Part shown: positions 3,116 to 22,839 of the stretch, piece after piece
Position numbering within the stretch: the first letter of the stretch is position 1
Layout of the letters: each line of letters opens with the position of its first letter
From: Deltaproteobacteria bacterium
GTDB lineage: Bacteria; Myxococcota_C; UBA6777
DNA: 53,544 nucleotides
Assembly (NCBI GenBank): GCA_002731275.1
Contig: PCBK01000136.1
Span: 1 to 53,544, forward strand
Reading direction: 5' to 3'
Made by a program: the position numbers and the translations under genes
Notes under the pieces: model-generated
Seen by the model: only the letters and a program-made list of their open reading frames with translations
What the model was told of the DNA's origin: nothing
Database searches by the model: none

Positions 3116-3317
3116 GAGCACTCCTTTGGTCTCCAAACATCAGCAAAAGCATACCACAAACGACGAAACAAACACATCTCAGAGTGCCTCCAATCGCCTG
3201 TTGAGCAAGAGTATTTCTTGACTGTTTTCCGTGGCCTCTGCTAACGTCGATCCATGACGTTTATTTGCAGCATCCTATAACAAACGCATGGTGTCCTTTT
3301 CGTGCAGGACGAAATCA

Positions 3318-5312
3318 ATGACCTCTTTCAAAAAGATGCTCCTGGGAGCCACAGGGATCGCGCTCATCGCATCAGGCGCCTACATCTTCGCGAGACCTCC
3401 TCAGAAGACCCCTCCCAAAACACACTTTACCCTACAATTACTCCACGCATCCGACATGGAGAGTGACTTAAGTGCGCTTGAGAGCGCCCCCTACATGTCT
3501 CAACTCCTCGCGGGCTTTAAGGGCCGAATGCCTGAGAATACGGTCATTGTCTCCGCTGGCGACAATTACGTCCCTGGTCCCTTCTACCAAGCCAGCGCGC
3601 ACAACTCGATGAAGGCGCTGCTTGGACGTACAGGGCGCGGTCGAGCTGACATCTCCATGCTCAACGCAATGGGATTTCAGGTCTCCTCCTTTGGCAACCA
3701 CGAGTTCGACGAAGGCCCCAAATTCTTTGCCTCACTCCTCGGCAAAGACGCAAAGCGTGGCAAAGTCTATCCAGGCGCAGCCTTCCCTTATTTGTGTGCA
3801 AACATCGACTTTCGGACGGAGAAAACCCTCACGAAGTTCGTCACAAAAGACCTCCAAGAAGCCTCCAACATACGAGGTCGCATCGCCAAAAGCGCGATCA
3901 TCACACTCCCCAAGACACGCATCGGGTTTGTCGGCGCCATCACACCTGCGCTCGCCCAGATCTCCAAGCCCGGCGCCGCAAGTATCTTCCCCAAACGCCC
4001 AGATAACGAAGACGCGCTGGTCACATTGATCCAACGCGCAGTCGATGGACTCACCCAAAAAGGGATCGACAAGATCGTCCTCCTCTCACACATGCAGGAT
4101 CTTCAGGTCGAACGTAGACTCGCCAGAAAGCTCAAGAATGTCGACATCATCGTAGGTGGCGGTTCAGACTCAATCCTCGCAGACAAAACAGACCGCTTGA
4201 TCAAGGGCGACAAAGCCATCGACAGCTATCCCATCTGGGAGACCTCCGCATCAGGCCAACCGACAGCCGTCCTCAGCACGGATGGACAGTACCGTTATGT
4301 AGGACGTCTCGTGATCGGCTTCGACGAAAAAGGGGTCTTACTCAAACACACCTACCAACCCGAAGAGAGTGGCGCGTACCCGACAGATTCACAATGTGCG
4401 ACGGACATCGGCGCTCCACCGCCAAACAAAAAAGTACAGGCGCTCGTAGACGGTATCCGCCGGCTGTTTGTGAAAAAAGACGGCAATACATTTGGTCGCT
4501 CAAATGTCTATCTCAACGGCATGAGACTCGGTGTCCGCCACCAAGAGACCAACCTCGGCAATCTCACAACAGACGCCAATCTCTACGTCGCCCGACTCGC
4601 CGAACCAACAGTCCACCTCTCCTTCAAGAATGGCGGCGCGATCCGTAGCGCCATTGGAGCCGTACAGGGCGACACGATCGACACGAGCAAGCCCAGACAT
4701 CTCCCCCCTCCCGCCAACCCACTCACAGGCAAAAAAGAAGGACAGATCTCACAGCTCGACATCGAAAACGCGCTCAAGTTTAACAACCGCCTGATCCTGC
4801 TGACACTCACGGCCACACAGCTCAAACAAATCGTCGAACACGGCATCGCCAAGTGGCACCCAAGATACACACCGGGCTCCTTCCCACAGATCTCGGGCTT
4901 CTCCTTTAGCTTTGATCCCAAGCGACCTGCCGGGCAACGTGTCCGCTCACTGCGTGTCGACGCCTTCGACAAACAACCAGCCGACACCATCGTCAAAAAT
5001 GGAGCGCTTGTTGGTTCACCTACGCGTACTTTTCGGGTCGTCACACTTCAATACTTGTTCAAGGGTGGGGACAATTACCCTTTCCCAAAATACGACAAAG
5101 AAAAGCTCAACCCCGTCCTGCTCTCCAATGTCCTCAAAGACAAACCTGGAAAAGCCACCTTCTCCGCACCAGGACGTGAGCAAGACGCCCTCGCCGAATA
5201 TCTCTTCGCGATGTACAACAAGACCCCCTTTGACCAGCAAGATACTCCACCAGAGCGTGATACACGCATCCAAAACCTCCTCAAACGCAAAGACACTGTC
5301 ATCCCCAAATGA
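3318..5312 (+). CDS. Exported 5'-nucleotidase / metallophosphoesterase
   Basis: About 664 residues. An N-terminal Lys then hydrophobic segment (MTSFKKM followed by LGATGIALIASGAYIF) is a signal peptide or anchor, so the enzyme acts outside the cytoplasm. The calcineurin-like metal site is visible: LLHASDMESD, SAGDNY, FGNHEFDEGP and LLSHMQ. The first block has Glu where UshA has His, as in the 'ASDxE' subgroup of bacterial nucleotidases. The 5'-nucleotidase C-terminal domain follows from about residue 390, with FKNGGAIRSAI. It probably hydrolyses extracellular nucleotides or related phosphate esters. The ATG at 3318 is chosen because AGGA lies eight bases upstream; the ATG at 3288 has no such site. 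Its stop overlaps the next start. Confidence 0.88.
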   Translation: MTSFKKMLLGATGIALIASGAYIFARPPQKTPPKTHFTLQLLHASDMESDLSALESAPYMSQLLAGFKGRMPENTVIVSAGDNYVPGPFYQASAHNSMKALLGRTGRGRADISMLNAMGFQVSSFGNHEFDEGPKFFASLLGKDAKRGKVYPGAAFPYLCANIDFRTEKTLTKFVTKDLQEASNIRGRIAKSAIITLPKTRIGFVGAITPALAQISKPGAASIFPKRPDNEDALVTLIQRAVDGLTQKGIDKIVLLSHMQDLQVERRLARKLKNVDIIVGGGSDSILADKTDRLIKGDKAIDSYPIWETSASGQPTAVLSTDGQYRYVGRLVIGFDEKGVLLKHTYQPEESGAYPTDSQCATDIGAPPPNKKVQALVDGIRRLFVKKDGNTFGRSNVYLNGMRLGVRHQETNLGNLTTDANLYVARLAEPTVHLSFKNGGAIRSAIGAVQGDTIDTSKPRHLPPPANPLTGKKEGQISQLDIENALKFNNRLILLTLTATQLKQIVEHGIAKWHPRYTPGSFPQISGFSFSFDPKRPAGQRVRSLRVDAFDKQPADTIVKNGALVGSPTRTFRVVTLQYLFKGGDNYPFPKYDKEKLNPVLLSNVLKDKPGKATFSAPGREQDALAEYLFAMYNKTPFDQQDTPPERDTRIQNLLKRKDTVIPK

Positions 5313-6052
5313 GCCAGGACACCCCACTCAAGCGCATGAAGCTCACATATACACACGCCCTCTGGCTGCTGTACGCTTGTGAAGAGCATCCAACGCTTCA
5401 AGTCGAGCTTCGACAAACGACGCCACAATTACGCCTCCTGGACGCCGAACAACAATTACTCGCAGAGGCCCATCTTCCCTGGGTGTTTCCTCCTGTACAC
5501 TACACAGACAATCAAGCGGTGTACTCTCCTCTTCCGACCCTGGAGTCCTTCTCACAGTATGTCGAACGACTGCCACAGGGGATCCCCCCTCACATCATCT
5601 TGTTGATCCAGGCAGGGAATGCTGCGCTCGGATATATCGAAGATGGCGACATCCTCCACCACAAAGTGATTCGGAAGTACATGGTGCGCAAAAAGCAGGG
5701 AAAAGCCCAGGTTACCCACCTCAATCAAAAGGGCAAATCGAGGCTTGGTTCACGAATAAGATTGGCCAACACAAAGGCATTTTTTGAAGAGATCCACGAT
5801 AAACTCGTGGAGTGGGATGTCGTCGACAACGCAGACATCATCCTCTACAGTTGCCCGACGAAGCTGTGGAGTCTGCTGTACGATGCGAAGACGACACTCG
5901 CGTGGCAGCGAGAGGACCCACGACTGCAAAAAATCCCAACGCACGTACACACGCCAAACTTCGATGAATTACAGCGGATCCAGACACTCTCCACACAAGC
6001 CACACTGGACATCTATACACCTGCACTCTACGATATGCTCCCGGATCTTTGA
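5309..6052 (+). CDS. VLRF1 (Vms1/ANKZF1-type) peptidyl-tRNA release factor-like protein
   Basis: A 247-residue soluble protein. Its middle reads like the eRF1-like VLRF1 domain of Vms1/ANKZF1: an AGNAALGYIEDG strand pair, then HKVIRKYMVRKKQGKAQ, GKSRLGSRIRLANTKAFFEEI, and an ILYSCPTKLWSLL strand. The R-x-Y-x-V-R-x-K-Q-G-x-A-Q signature and the following Ser/Gly-Arg-rich block match what is known of that family. Eukaryotic members hydrolyse peptidyl-tRNA on stalled 60S subunits, and bacterial VLRF1 versions have been noted by comparative genomics. A ribosome-rescue role here is inference. It overlaps the nucleotidase stop by four bases (ATGA), so translation is probably coupled; no strong ribosome site is visible. 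Confidence 0.72.
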   Translation: MSQDTPLKRMKLTYTHALWLLYACEEHPTLQVELRQTTPQLRLLDAEQQLLAEAHLPWVFPPVHYTDNQAVYSPLPTLESFSQYVERLPQGIPPHIILLIQAGNAALGYIEDGDILHHKVIRKYMVRKKQGKAQVTHLNQKGKSRLGSRIRLANTKAFFEEIHDKLVEWDVVDNADIILYSCPTKLWSLLYDAKTTLAWQREDPRLQKIPTHVHTPNFDELQRIQTLSTQATLDIYTPALYDMLPDL

Positions 6053-6098: not shown

Positions 6099-6980
6099 AT
6101 GCGTATCGGCGCACAGATGAGCACATCAGGGGGCTTACATAAAGCATTCCAAAGAGGCGAAGAGGTCGGCTGTGAGACGATCATGATCTTCACAAAGAGC
6201 AACCGACAGTGGCGGGCCAAAGAGATCACACAGAAGGATATCGAAGCCTACGAAGACGCACAATCCACACACACACAGATCACGCCCGTCTCCGTCCACG
6301 CGAGCTACCTGATCAATCTCGCGTCACCAGACAAAGAGTTGTTTGACAAGTCGTACGCCGCGCTCAAAGTTGAAGTCGAACGAGCAGGTCTGTTGGGTAT
6401 TCCACACCTGACCTTCCACCCTGGAAATGCCGTCGATGGAGATGAAGAAGCTGGCCTCAAACGTATCGCCAAAGGCCTGAAGAAGCTGATCAAGGAGACC
6501 AAAAAGACAGCCCCTCACACACACATCTGTATCGAGACGATGCCTGGACAGGGCAGCCAGCTAGGGTACAAGTTTGAACACATCGCGACAATGCTCGACA
6601 AAGCAGGTGGCGATGAGAGGTTGGCGGTTTGTCTCGACACCTGTCATATCTTCTCGGCAGGCTATGATATACGCACAGAGGATGGATACCTCCAGACGAT
6701 GAAGGCGTTTGATGACATCGTCGGATTAGAGCGAATCAAATGTTTTCACTTCAACGACAGTAAGCACGACTTAGGGAGTCGAAAAGACCGTCACGAACAT
6801 ATTGGACAGGGGTATATTGGGGAGACGTGTTTTGCCTGCTTCTTACAAGACCCACAATGGGCGTCACATCCGGCTCATTTAGAGACCCCCAAGCGCCGCA
6901 AAACAGATGACGGCGAGTCGATCGAGATGGACCCCGTCAACCTGGAGACATTGCGCCGCCTACAGGAAGAGATGCCATAG
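6099..6980 (+). CDS. nfo: Deoxyribonuclease IV (AP endonuclease)
   Basis: 293 residues, near the usual 280-285 for EndoIV. The opening MRIGAQMSTSGGLHKAF is typical. Zinc-ligand blocks are seen in order: VHASYLINLAS, FHPGN, CIETMPGQG, CLDTCHIFSAGYD, and HFNDSKHDLGSRKDRHEHIGQG. The enzyme cleaves abasic sites and 3'-blocked ends in base excision repair in the cytoplasm. The ribosome site AAAAGGAG lies six bases before the ATG. It follows the VLRF1-like gene by 46 bases on the same strand and may share its transcript. A dispersed repeat begins directly after the stop codon. Confidence 0.96.
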   Translation: MRIGAQMSTSGGLHKAFQRGEEVGCETIMIFTKSNRQWRAKEITQKDIEAYEDAQSTHTQITPVSVHASYLINLASPDKELFDKSYAALKVEVERAGLLGIPHLTFHPGNAVDGDEEAGLKRIAKGLKKLIKETKKTAPHTHICIETMPGQGSQLGYKFEHIATMLDKAGGDERLAVCLDTCHIFSAGYDIRTEDGYLQTMKAFDDIVGLERIKCFHFNDSKHDLGSRKDRHEHIGQGYIGETCFACFLQDPQWASHPAHLETPKRRKTDDGESIEMDPVNLETLRRLQEEMP

Positions 6981-7278: not shown

Positions 7279-9588
7279 TTAAAGGTTGGCGTTGTCGATA
7301 AGCAAGAGATAATTGAGATCATTGAGCGAGCGCAAGAGGTCTTCGGAGAGGGGCTGTTCACTGATCAACAAAAGAGGGACTTCTCGCGTCCGGACAGAGC
7401 GACCGAGTTCAGAGAACAAGAACGCCCAGGGCGCTTGAAAATCACCGATATGCAAAATAAGCAGGTGAGGTGGTGCCTGGTAAAGATACTGGATCCCCTG
7501 GGCAGGTTCATCGCAGACTTGTAGATCGACATCAACACCACAACAAAATTCGAGCAGGCGTCCAGCCTCCTCTTTGGCGTCAATCCCAATACTCAAGACC
7601 ATACAATCGTGTTTGCGTGCGCGAACACTTTCGAGCCACTTGTACCAAAAGTCTTCGTCGAGCTTGGCGGAGCGATATTTCCCCCAAACAAACTCAACCC
7701 CACCACCTTCCTCAGGGACGCCAGTTGTGTTGAGCAGCGGGAGCCACAATTCACGGGGCTGTCGTTGCACGAGCGTGGCAATCTCAGCGCGAAGACCTTC
7801 TTCTTCAGGCGGCATCAAGATGACACCTGCCGGGAGATCCATGATCCCCTCTTTCAATTCTTGCGGTGTCGAGAGCACTTTCACCCGAAACAACATCGAA
7901 CGTAACATCTCCAAAAAGGAAGGTGTAAAGGCGAGTTGTTTCTCTGTGTAGTAAATCAGGTCTTGTATCCCCAACCCCTCAGCCGTCAGCTCCGAGGAAG
8001 AGAGGATATCCATATCACCGACTTCGCTGATCTCATCGTCCTCCGTTGAGACCGAAGCCGACGATGGGCTCTCTTCTACCGCTACACTCAGCTCATCGAT
8101 ATCATCGATTAACTCATGCACTCCGCTCTTGGGCTCTGTTTCTTGTGCCGGTTCTTCAGGCGCCTCGTTGTACGCGTCGATAAAATCAGACGAGAGCTGT
8201 GGCTCTTCGTTTGGCGGCTCCTCTTGCACTTCTTGTAGAGCTTGCATCGCCGCATCATCGACGACTTGTGTTTCAAAGGAGTCGTCCTCTGGTGGGAGAT
8301 CCTGTGTTGAAGAGAGCGCATCTTGCTCTTCGTCCGAATGACTCACGGACTTGCGCACCTTGGCCAGCTCATTGTCATCAAAGAGCAGATCGCGAGACTC
8401 GGAGAGAGACACGGTTTTGTTAAACGACTGTTGAACCTCTTCGGCCTCATCTTCAGCTGGCACATCTTTAACTTCTTCGAGCAACTCGGATGTATCTCGG
8501 ATAGGGACATCTTCAAACTCTGTCGTCATCCGAAGGTTTTGTTGGACTTGAAAGATCTCAACAGAGGAGGTCGCCTCACTTGGCTCTTGGGATTCTTCTG
8601 CCGCAGCGTTACGCAAAGACATCAAGCGAGGATCTTCGCTGGCCATAATCGCAACAGTCTCTTCAAACTCCGGTGCTTTCTCGGAAGATGCAGCTGGTGT
8701 TGAGGTGGCCTCTTCAGCTTGTTTTTGTTGAAGTAAAGATTCGGAGAGGAGCAGGATCTCGTGGCGAGCTTCTTCGAGCTGCTCCTGAAGTAATTGTTTT
8801 TCAGCTTCGATTGATTGAACCAACTCTTCGGAGGAGAGAAGCGCACTGACGACCTCTTCCGTTCGCGTTTGTGCGTCCTGGAACTTTTGTCGCAGACCTT
8901 CGAGCTCAGTGTAGAAGACCTGCAGCTCTTGTTTGCTCTGTGTGGCTTCTTTTTGTGCGTCCTGGAGCTGTTGGATGAGCTCTTCATCACTGCCTTGTGC
9001 CAGAGCCGCGCGATGCCACTTTGCGCGCTCGATCTCACTCGCGAGCGCCTGACCAATCACGATGTAGCTACCCACCTCAGAGGGCTCAGGGAACATATCC
9101 TCTTCGAAGCGAAGATGTAAGGCTCCGATACCACGACCTCCAACGTATAATGGTAGGCTGAGAAGATGAAGCGCGCCGCTACCAAAGAGCGTCGAGAGCA
9201 ACGCACTGGCCTCTTCGCTCAAGGGGGTGTTGTGTGCGTCCTGACGGAGTGGTTCGGTCAAGATCTCCTCGTAGGCGGCCCATTCAATAGGCAACGTCGA
9301 GACGACAAATTGACCATCTTCATCAAGCTCCCAACGCTCGACTTCGACGAGGTGGTCTGTGGATGCGCCAAACATAAAGAGCGAAAAATCTGAGGGTGCG
9401 ACGTCGAGGACATCACATAGCATCATCCCTAGCTCAGAGGAGTTTTGTAGGCCAAGCTGCCCTATCTCTTCGAACAATGTGGGGAGGGTCGACATGCGCG
9501 TCATGATGCGGCTGGAGAGCAGCAATTGATGAGACCACGATAAGGAGGTATCAAACGAACGACTTGGATCAGATTTTTTTGATTGCAT
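7279..9588 (-). CDS. GAF-like / coiled-coil / acidic linker / receiver-like protein
   Basis: 769 residues from the ATG at 9588, which has CGGAG seven bases upstream; the frame extends 46 codons further without a good start. Residues roughly 15-195 look like a GAF-type sensory domain, with LSLPLYVGGRGIGALHLRF as the usual strand pattern. Residues about 200-290 form a Gln/Glu-rich coiled coil, and about 290-580 are very acidic, Ser/Glu/Pro-rich and probably disordered. The last 180 residues have alternating strands and helices (VLSIGIDAKEE, LLILHIGDFQ, EVPLLLISEQPLS) resembling a response-regulator receiver domain, possibly with an altered phosphoacceptor site. It may be a signalling scaffold of myxobacterial type. 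No homologue is named; the domain calls are from pattern only. Confidence 0.7.
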   Translation of the reverse strand: MQSKKSDPSRSFDTSLSWSHQLLLSSRIMTRMSTLPTLFEEIGQLGLQNSSELGMMLCDVLDVAPSDFSLFMFGASTDHLVEVERWELDEDGQFVVSTLPIEWAAYEEILTEPLRQDAHNTPLSEEASALLSTLFGSGALHLLSLPLYVGGRGIGALHLRFEEDMFPEPSEVGSYIVIGQALASEIERAKWHRAALAQGSDEELIQQLQDAQKEATQSKQELQVFYTELEGLRQKFQDAQTRTEEVVSALLSSEELVQSIEAEKQLLQEQLEEARHEILLLSESLLQQKQAEEATSTPAASSEKAPEFEETVAIMASEDPRLMSLRNAAAEESQEPSEATSSVEIFQVQQNLRMTTEFEDVPIRDTSELLEEVKDVPAEDEAEEVQQSFNKTVSLSESRDLLFDDNELAKVRKSVSHSDEEQDALSSTQDLPPEDDSFETQVVDDAAMQALQEVQEEPPNEEPQLSSDFIDAYNEAPEEPAQETEPKSGVHELIDDIDELSVAVEESPSSASVSTEDDEISEVGDMDILSSSELTAEGLGIQDLIYYTEKQLAFTPSFLEMLRSMLFRVKVLSTPQELKEGIMDLPAGVILMPPEEEGLRAEIATLVQRQPRELWLPLLNTTGVPEEGGGVEFVWGKYRSAKLDEDFWYKWLESVRARKHDCMVLSIGIDAKEEAGRLLEFCCGVDVDLQVCDEPAQGIQYLYQAPPHLLILHIGDFQAPWAFLFSELGRSVRTREVPLLLISEQPLSEDLLRSLNDLNYLLLIDNANL

Positions 9589-9861
9589 CAATGTCTCCGA
9601 AACGTGGAGGCCTCCGGCGCCTCCATCAAAATCACACAGCGACACGACATCCCTATTACGCCGAAGGGACATCACAAAACCAAACAGGTAACAAGTATTC
9701 CAAAGCACACCAAGAAAACAGGCCAATACAAGAGCTTACAATAACCCCTCAGGAAAAGCAAATACTCACACATCACGCCTATCAAAGAGTCGTGACATGC
9801 GCTACACAGGCGTTTTGTTTTGGGAGTATAAGCGGCGAGAGGGAAGAGAGGTAGGAACGAT

Positions 9862-11166
9862 TTACGCGACGATCTTGATGTGGGGGAAGACCTCTTGTAG
9901 ACGTGCACGTCCAGAGACACCAAGGCCATTCATCGCGAGATTGAGCACCTTCAGGTTTTGCATTAACGGTGAATTGACGAGGGCCTTGAGACCTTGCAAG
10001 CCGATTTGGTTATGAGAAAGGTCGAGCACTTCGAGCATCTCGGAAGCAGGTGAGGACTTGAGAAACTTAAGTCCCTCATCACCGATGTGATTGCTCCACA
10101 TACTCAACACACGAAGGAAGCTGAGAGAAGGTGCATCGATCAAGATCTTCAACCCTTCGGCGCCGAGGTCATTTTCTCCGAGATACAAATGAGAGAGAGA
10201 CGACAGAGAAGGCGCTGCCGCGATGGCTTCTGCACCACGGACGCCCAACTGGTTACTCGACAGATCGAGGACTTGAAGGTTTTCAGCGACAGGGGATTGG
10301 ACGAGCGACGTGACGCCTTCAGGTCCAATCGCGTTCCCCCACAAGTGGAGCTCTTTGAGTGTGCACAGATGTGGAGATTGTGCGATGAAGGCAGCGCCTT
10401 CTTGCCCCATCTGATTTTCGCGAAGCTGAAGCACTTCGAGGCTACGCAGACTTGGGCACTCAGCGATGGCTTTCACCCCTTTGGCTGTGAGCTTGTTGTT
10501 CCACAGATCGAGGACACGAAGGTTCTCCAAACCTCTCGCGCTGACAAGAGCTTCGATCCCTTCATCGCCGATTTGGTTGTCACATAAGTACAACTCTTCG
10601 AGAGCGTCGAGCGGGCCGTGGCTCAGGATGGAGAGTCCTTTGTCACCGAGCGCGTTGGTGTCGAGCTGCAGGACCTGGATACGACCGAGGACTTCTGAGC
10701 CAGCGAGGGCTTCCAGTCCTTTCTCACCGAGTTGGTTCCCCGAGATATCGAGTCGCTTCAGCGCCGAAAGATATGGCGAAGTCGCCAACATTTCGATGCC
10801 CTGGTCACCAATATTGTTGTTGGACAACCGCAGCTCGGTAAGTTGTTTGGCGTGTGGGGATTGGCTGAGAATGCGAATCTCTTCGAGACCAATCTCCAGG
10901 CCACTCAGATCAAATCCTCGCACCAAAGGCCACACATGGCTGGGTTCGCCGTTGGGAAAATCAACCCAACAGTCCTCAGGGTGTGCGCGTCGCAGGGACT
11001 CATCCCATGTCGAGAGGTGCTGGACAACCCGCCGAATGATCTGCTCTCGCTTTGCCTCAACAGGCCACATCCCAAGCAACGCAAGCATCGCTCGCCAGGT
11101 ATCTTCTCCCGGCTCTTGGGTCAACAACTCCTTGAGCAGCAACCAACCTTTTTTTTCACTCGTCAT
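9862..11166 (-). CDS. Leucine-rich repeat protein (ribonuclease-inhibitor type)
   Basis: About 434 residues. After a helical N-terminal segment of about 90 residues, twelve consecutive repeats of about 27 residues follow, each of the form LxLxxNxIGDxGxxALxxSPxLxxL. The repeat length and the GDEG turn fit the RI-like LRR class common in Myxococcota, and the N-terminal helical part resembles the companion domain often found with such repeats. No signal peptide is visible, so a cytoplasmic protein-binding role is likely. The ATG at 11166 is preceded by GAGGAG at nine bases; starts at 11187 and 11238 are possible but weaker. It lies upstream of, and on the same strand as, the GAF-like gene, with 273 bases between them. 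Confidence 0.88.
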   Translation of the reverse strand: MTSEKKGWLLLKELLTQEPGEDTWRAMLALLGMWPVEAKREQIIRRVVQHLSTWDESLRRAHPEDCWVDFPNGEPSHVWPLVRGFDLSGLEIGLEEIRILSQSPHAKQLTELRLSNNNIGDQGIEMLATSPYLSALKRLDISGNQLGEKGLEALAGSEVLGRIQVLQLDTNALGDKGLSILSHGPLDALEELYLCDNQIGDEGIEALVSARGLENLRVLDLWNNKLTAKGVKAIAECPSLRSLEVLQLRENQMGQEGAAFIAQSPHLCTLKELHLWGNAIGPEGVTSLVQSPVAENLQVLDLSSNQLGVRGAEAIAAAPSLSSLSHLYLGENDLGAEGLKILIDAPSLSFLRVLSMWSNHIGDEGLKFLKSSPASEMLEVLDLSHNQIGLQGLKALVNSPLMQNLKVLNLAMNGLGVSGRARLQEVFPHIKIVA

Positions 11167-11407
11167 GCGATCTTTCTCCTCGTTCATGTGACATGATCTC
11201 CTCAACACCATGCCACAAACCGCACGCTTTGGAAACATCCCGCCCCGTATTTTCTCAAATGACGAAAGATCAAGACTTTAGCGTTATATCCCCTCGAAAA
11301 AGACAGAACACTCTAGAAACATTCGACGCTATAGCTCGTTTGTGGTACACCATGCCTCATCTTTGTGCCCCGTGTAGGATGGAGCACGCGCATGTCTGGA
11401 GTATGGA

Positions 11408-21798: not shown

Positions 21799-22839
21799 AT
21801 GAAGAAGAATACTTCAAACCGATGGGTCCCCTTGCTGTCTGCACTCTCGATCGTGTTTTCAGCATTTCTGTTCAACTGTGGTGACAACAACAACAAAGGT
21901 GAAGGAAACAACACCGAACAGATCGCCACAGAGAAAGCAGCAGAAAAGGCAACTGAAGAAAAAAAAGAAGCAGACGCTGGCCCCACTGAAAAAGAGCCCG
22001 CAGATGAACCCAAAGCTTGCGCAACAGGCGAAGTCGACTGCAATGGCACGTGTACCAACACAAGCGCTGACGACAAAAACTGCGGTTCGTGTGGAACAGC
22101 TTGTGCGACAGGCGAAACCTGTAAGGCAGGCAAGTGCGAGAGCAGCAGCACATGCTCCAACGGCGAGACGGACTGTAGCGGCACATGCACAGACACCCAA
22201 ACAGACGACAAAAACTGCGGTTCATGCGGTACAGCTTGCGCGACAGGTGAGACCTGTAAAGCTGGTAAGTGTGAGAGCAGCAACACATGTTCCAACGGTG
22301 AAACGGACTGCAGCGGCACATGTACAGATACCCAAACGGACGACAAAAACTGTGGTTCATGTGGGAACGTTTGTACTGCGAACCAAACCTGCAAAGCTGG
22401 AAAATGTGAAGACAACGCGGTCACATGTGGAACAGGTGAGACAGACTGTAGCGGCACATGTGTGAAGACGGACTCCGACGTCAACAACTGCGGTTCATGT
22501 GGAAATGCTTGTGCGTCAGGTGAGAGCTGTAACGCAGGTAAATGTGAAGCGCCCAGCAAGTGTGGTCCCACAACGATAAGCTTTAGCACTGATGTCTACC
22601 CCATCCTCAACGCGAGCTGTAGCTGCCACCAAAGTGGTACAGGTGGACTCAAGTTTGGTAACGTGTCGGAGACCTTCACCAACCTTGCGGGACATATCAC
22701 AGCAGGCGATCCCGACACGAGTAACCTGATCAAGCGCATGGAGAGCTCAGCCAGCCCTATGCCTCCAAGTGGTAAAATCGGACAGACCGATATCGACAAG
22801 ATCAGAAACTGGATCTGCCAAGGCGCCAAAAATAACTAA
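21799..22839 (+). CDS. Cys-rich repeat lipoprotein with cytochrome-c-like C-terminal domain
   Basis: 346 residues. GGAGG at 21788-21792 sits six bases before the third of three consecutive ATGs, so 21799 is the likely start. A signal peptide ends at lipobox FLFNC. An Asn/Glu/Lys/Ala spacer precedes four tandem Stig1-like repeats of about 43 residues of the form DCSGTCTDTQTDDKNCGSCG then ACATGETCKAGKCE. The last 90 residues (ISFSTDVYPILNASCSCHQSG, then SPMPPSG and IRNWICQGA) follow the layout of cytochrome-c-like domains found in Planctomycetes and Myxococcota. However, the haem motif is CSCH, one residue short of CxxCH, so haem attachment is doubtful. It is an outer-membrane or surface lipoprotein of unknown role. 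Confidence 0.8.
   Translation: MKKNTSNRWVPLLSALSIVFSAFLFNCGDNNNKGEGNNTEQIATEKAAEKATEEKKEADAGPTEKEPADEPKACATGEVDCNGTCTNTSADDKNCGSCGTACATGETCKAGKCESSSTCSNGETDCSGTCTDTQTDDKNCGSCGTACATGETCKAGKCESSNTCSNGETDCSGTCTDTQTDDKNCGSCGNVCTANQTCKAGKCEDNAVTCGTGETDCSGTCVKTDSDVNNCGSCGNACASGESCNAGKCEAPSKCGPTTISFSTDVYPILNASCSCHQSGTGGLKFGNVSETFTNLAGHITAGDPDTSNLIKRMESSASPMPPSGKIGQTDIDKIRNWICQGAKNN

Follow-up and report, generated by a model that had tools for sequence, protein, structure and literature searches.

Bacterial VLRF-1 (bVLRF-1) was defined by Burroughs & Aravind (2019) as the closest relative of Vms1/ANKZF1 and was described as a standalone protein, found predominantly in Bacteroidetes and in some Heimdallarchaeota (PMC6514570). 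Release by Vms1 requires the residues R288, G292 and Q295 (PMC5989216), and Vms1/ANKZF1 cut the CCA end of the tRNA (PMC11317155, PMC12868832). In bacterial ribosome quality control (RQC), the release factor of B. subtilis is Pth. Our literature search turned up no laboratory or biochemical test of any bVLRF1 member. Here we describe a bVLRF1 gene in a Deltaproteobacteria bacterium, located in a contig of 53,544 nucleotides that was analysed at its full length (the window). The features are collected in Table 1.

Table 1. Positions in the window of the bVLRF1 gene, its parts and its two neighbours.
Feature	Position	Strand	Basis or remark
bVLRF1 gene, 247 aa	5309..6052	+	ORF; Pfam PF18826 E 2.4e-33
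N-terminal alpha/beta region, residues 1-95	5309..5593	+	poorly conserved; 33% mean column identity (alignment A4)
VLRF1 / eRF1-domain-2-like RNase H-fold domain, residues 96-230	5594..5998	+	Pfam range, genome search range
Catalytic loop and next basic helix, residues 118-151, HKVIRKYMVRKKQGKAQ...KGKSR.GSRIR	5660..5761	+	22-sequence alignment and Vms1
R127	5687-5689	+	equivalent of Vms1 R288
G131	5699-5701	+	equivalent of Vms1 G292
Q134	5708-5710	+	equivalent of Vms1 Q295
5'-nucleotidase family, probably exported, neighbour only	3288..5312	+	PF02872 E 5.4e-26
nfo, deoxyribonuclease IV, neighbour only	6099..6980	+	TIGR00587 E 6.3e-90

Results

Family Assignment and Active Site

The ORF contains the motif HKVIRKYMVRKKQGKAQVTHLNQKGKSRLGSRIRLAN, and the initial annotation had read its product as a VLRF1-type release factor. 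In an hmmscan search bVLRF1 was the sole Pfam family detected in the protein; the match scored 115.6 bits against a Pfam cut-off of 27 bits and spanned positions 2-139 of the 145-position profile, i.e., nearly the whole domain. No matching model was found in NCBIfam. Among the sequences of the PDB, yeast Vms1 was the only significant match to the single sequence (phmmer, E 1.6e-4), and the E-value of this match was 6.6e-9 when a family profile built from 15 bacterial sequences was used. At the level of sequence, the resemblance of the protein to bVLRF1 and Vms1 is thus far greater than expected by chance, and the proposed membership is borne out. The system itself is not of a new kind. The suggestion that the family was novel did not hold, as bVLRF1 is already named in Pfam and was published in 2019.

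Equivalences to the catalytic residues of Vms1 were taken from an alignment with 5whg, with the numbering obtained by counting. R127, G131 and Q134 were identical in all 22 bacterial sequences and in Vms1, and the same was true of Y124, G142, K143, G147, S148 and R151. The Vms1 active-site residues are therefore intact in the product of this ORF, and the invariant pattern favours an active enzyme over an inactive, Dom34-like protein. The protein is quite probably a catalytically intact bVLRF1 that corresponds, in bacteria, to the release domain of Vms1/ANKZF1.

Predicted Fold and Domain Layout

An AlphaFold2 model (m68f4244c2faf) was built from an 11-sequence alignment and reached a pLDDT of 84.9 and a pTM of 0.80. 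The catalytic loop was its least certain part, as pLDDT values below 50 occurred only there (residues 125-130). When the model was searched with Foldseek, the top four matches were all Vms1 entries (best E 1.5e-6), followed by Pelota and eRF1. Pairwise alignment with VIA-align gave a Z of 12.9 against Vms1 on the 60S subunit (178 residues aligned, 3.4 A), 11.3 against eRF1 domain 2, 11.0 against aRF1, and about 9 against Dom34/Pelota and Balon. The predicted model thus bears out the eRF1-domain-2 fold, so that both the VLRF1 match and the related fold anticipated in the initial annotation were found.

The alignment to eRF1/aRF1 covers residues 91-230, and that to Vms1 begins already at model residue 9 (Vms1 residue 13). 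On the model, residues 1-95 could be the equivalent of the segment with which the Vms1 core begins; a comparison of the sequences of this region and of Vms1 revealed no support for homology.

With Vms1/ANKZF1 (eVLRF-1), the protein shares the RNase H-fold release domain, as modelled here, the equivalents of R288, G292 and Q295, and the GxxQ spacing; in the structural alignment the two are about 15% identical. In contrast to eVLRF-1, the 247-aa protein, with its single Pfam domain, lacks the zinc finger, the ankyrin repeats, the VTC and the Cdc48-binding VIM. The fold of residues 91-230 is, in the model, also common to domain 2 of eRF1/aRF1, Dom34/Pelota and Balon; however, the loop of the protein described here is GxxQ and not GGQ, and no Pelota-type domain was seen. 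The published bVLRF-1 family is matched in sequence, domain layout, glutamine-bearing catalytic loop and standalone gene, and the difference lies in the host, which here belongs to a myxococcal-type (Deltaproteobacteria) lineage instead of Bacteroidetes or Heimdallarchaeota.

Gene Neighbourhood

The stop of the upstream nucleotidase gene and the start of bVLRF1 overlap by four bases (ATGA), and 46 bases separate bVLRF1 from nfo downstream. The N terminus of the nucleotidase resembles a signal peptide when judged by eye. While the layout of the operon with nfo and an exported nucleotidase noted in the initial annotation was confirmed, its significance was not, as neither gene adjoined bVLRF1 in any of 21 other loci; a functional meaning of this arrangement was therefore rejected. 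Across these 21 loci no partner gene was conserved beside bVLRF1: neighbourhoods differed among all distant relatives, in agreement with the published standalone status of the family, and shared neighbours were confined to close relatives. Of possible partners in the repair of tRNA ends, neither RNase Z nor a CCA-adding enzyme was recognised by eye beside bVLRF1 among the neighbours, part of which were annotated, and searches of phage, plasmid and viral collections gave no match that would indicate mobile carriage.

In several related Bacteroidota genomes only (L072, L073 and L075), a divergently transcribed, HEAT-repeat-like gene adjoins bVLRF1; its Pfam score is slightly below the cut-off. 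Elsewhere in the window, the gene at 7279-9726 (-) encodes a protein of 815 aa that matches no Pfam family and is rich in Glu in its middle part; inspected by eye, it looks like a GAF-type sensor at the start and like a response-regulator domain at the end. A 458-aa protein encoded at 9862-11238 (-) consists mostly of leucine-rich repeats (LRR_6, E 6e-51), and within positions 22023-22549 there are direct repeats that are spaced by about 135 bases and are 73-74% identical.

Distribution

The nearest named relative is M3003, a Deltaproteobacteria MAG; NCBI assigns this name to Myxococcota. Among the five genomes of the host phylum, bVLRF1 was present in two. A scan of named genomes also turned up bVLRF1 in Calditrichota, Kapabacteria and Bacteroidota, and systematic samples showed that the gene is rare in Bacteroidota (6/392 genomes, one of the six being the genome used as centre) and occurs in 8/40 genomes of Calditrichota. 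With the copy described here the family gains a member that lies outside its main known group, in a lineage unusual for it; at least relative to PMC6514570, the myxococcal-type lineage, Calditrichota and Kapabacteria widen the recorded range of bVLRF1. The tree gave moderate support to one grouping only, the pairing with the M3003 protein (93/90), which is too little to trace the history of bVLRF1.

Partner Proteins and Co-occurrence

The initial annotation had pointed to RqcH or SmrB-type proteins as possible partners, and both an RqcH-like protein and MutS2 were found in the same genome. The RqcH-like protein (483 aa, NFACT_N and NFACT-R) is encoded on another contig (L004 1429-2880 (-), G000:C176). 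It is short and carries a D-K pair where its M3003 relative carries D-R, and the RqcH-like proteins of most Bacteroidota and Calditrichota relatives carry E-R; the short length and the D-K pair leave its tailing ability in question. The host also encodes a standalone NFACT-R protein of 127 aa (L003), as do many Calditrichota, and additionally carries SmpB and, as a separate gene (PF01195), Pth.

The host assembly is listed with 5.5% contamination. Positions 1-722 of the window contain a sequence that recurs about every 240-270 bases in copies 83-91% identical, and a diverged form of it is found at L004 81-785 (G000:C176), near the RqcH gene. A dispersed repeat of this genome is thus common to the contigs that carry bVLRF1 and RqcH, which argues against either being contamination.

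An NFACT-R protein was present in 20 of the 22 bVLRF1 genomes; none was detected in the two others, G009 and G330, both of which are draft genomes. Although 20/22 is striking, about 73% of Bacteroidota and 78% of Calditrichota genomes carry such a protein as background, and co-occurrence was rejected as evidence for a link to RQC. The NFACT-R protein was found in 4/6 Bacteroidota genomes with bVLRF1 versus 280/386 without it (Fisher p 0.67) and in 8/8 versus 25/32 Calditrichota genomes (Fisher p 0.31), and the two samples together gave a CMH z of 0.7. In these samples RqcH-like proteins were not significantly enriched in bVLRF1 genomes, in a test to which few bVLRF1 positives gave little power. 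A link of bVLRF1 to bacterial RQC is plausible, the observation being one of co-presence. Of the 19 genomes searched for SmpB, 17 carried it, among them 14 of the 16 with bVLRF1; Pth was found in nearly all genomes compared.

Discussion

The family, the fold and the invariant active-site residues are direct results of this analysis. As to function, bVLRF1 is most likely an active, standalone, codon-independent peptidyl-tRNA release factor that would act on stalled ribosomes or 50S subunits. The eRF1-domain-2-like domain would enter the A site, either on a stalled ribosome or, after splitting, on a 50S-peptidyl-tRNA complex. There, rRNA and tRNA would be held by the basic helix KGKSR.GSR.R, and the loop with R127, G131 and Q134 would extend to the peptidyl transferase centre, so that the nascent chain would be freed without a stop codon. 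Ribosome binding and release chemistry are inferred here, as is the substrate, which may be the RqcH-bound 50S subunit (RQC) or another stalled complex. Pth, which differs from bVLRF1 in family and fold, would do the same work of freeing nascent chains in bacterial RQC; its presence in nearly all genomes, together with its role in B. subtilis, counts against a release role of bVLRF1.

Two narrower forms of a release function can be weighed. A standalone rescue factor of the 70S ribosome, independent of RqcH and an alternative to ArfA, ArfB and tmRNA, is the view stated by Burroughs & Aravind (2019) (PMC6514570). Its patchy distribution, the lack of conserved neighbours and the two bVLRF1 genomes without a detected NFACT-R protein agree with this, but Vms1, the nearest characterised relative, acts on split 60S subunits, and the frequency of SmpB makes the need for an extra 70S factor questionable; we regard this form as a serious candidate that falls somewhat short of an even chance. 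Alternatively, bVLRF1 could be a dedicated termination factor of RQC that acts only once the ribosome has been split, on the RqcH/50S-peptidyl-tRNA complex, and ends alanine tailing, like Vms1 with Rqc2. The combination of MutS2, an RqcH-like protein and bVLRF1 in the host, the 20 genomes with an NFACT-R protein and the position of Vms1 as closest solved relative point this way. Against it, RqcH-like proteins are common regardless of bVLRF1, two draft genomes yielded no NFACT-R protein, and in the conserved D/E-R pair the host RqcH-like protein carries K instead of the R of its relatives. Such a dedicated role is therefore possible but rather doubtful.

A non-catalytic protein that occupies the A site and blocks or marks ribosomes, in the manner of Dom34 or of Balon, a hibernation factor, would also fit the predicted fold, which matches both proteins. 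However, the catalytic glutamine is missing from Dom34 and from most baeRF-1 families (PMC6514570), and Q134, R127 and G131 are invariant in the 22 sequences; we consider a non-catalytic role very unlikely.

The family was already published, and what is added here are the lineages, the rarity in Bacteroidota and a host with MutS2, an RqcH-like protein, SmpB and Pth. bVLRF1 bears on the origin of eukaryotic Vms1. With a relative of Vms1 that has an intact active site and occurs alongside MutS2 and RqcH-like proteins, a eukaryotic-style ending of RQC in some bacteria becomes directly testable.
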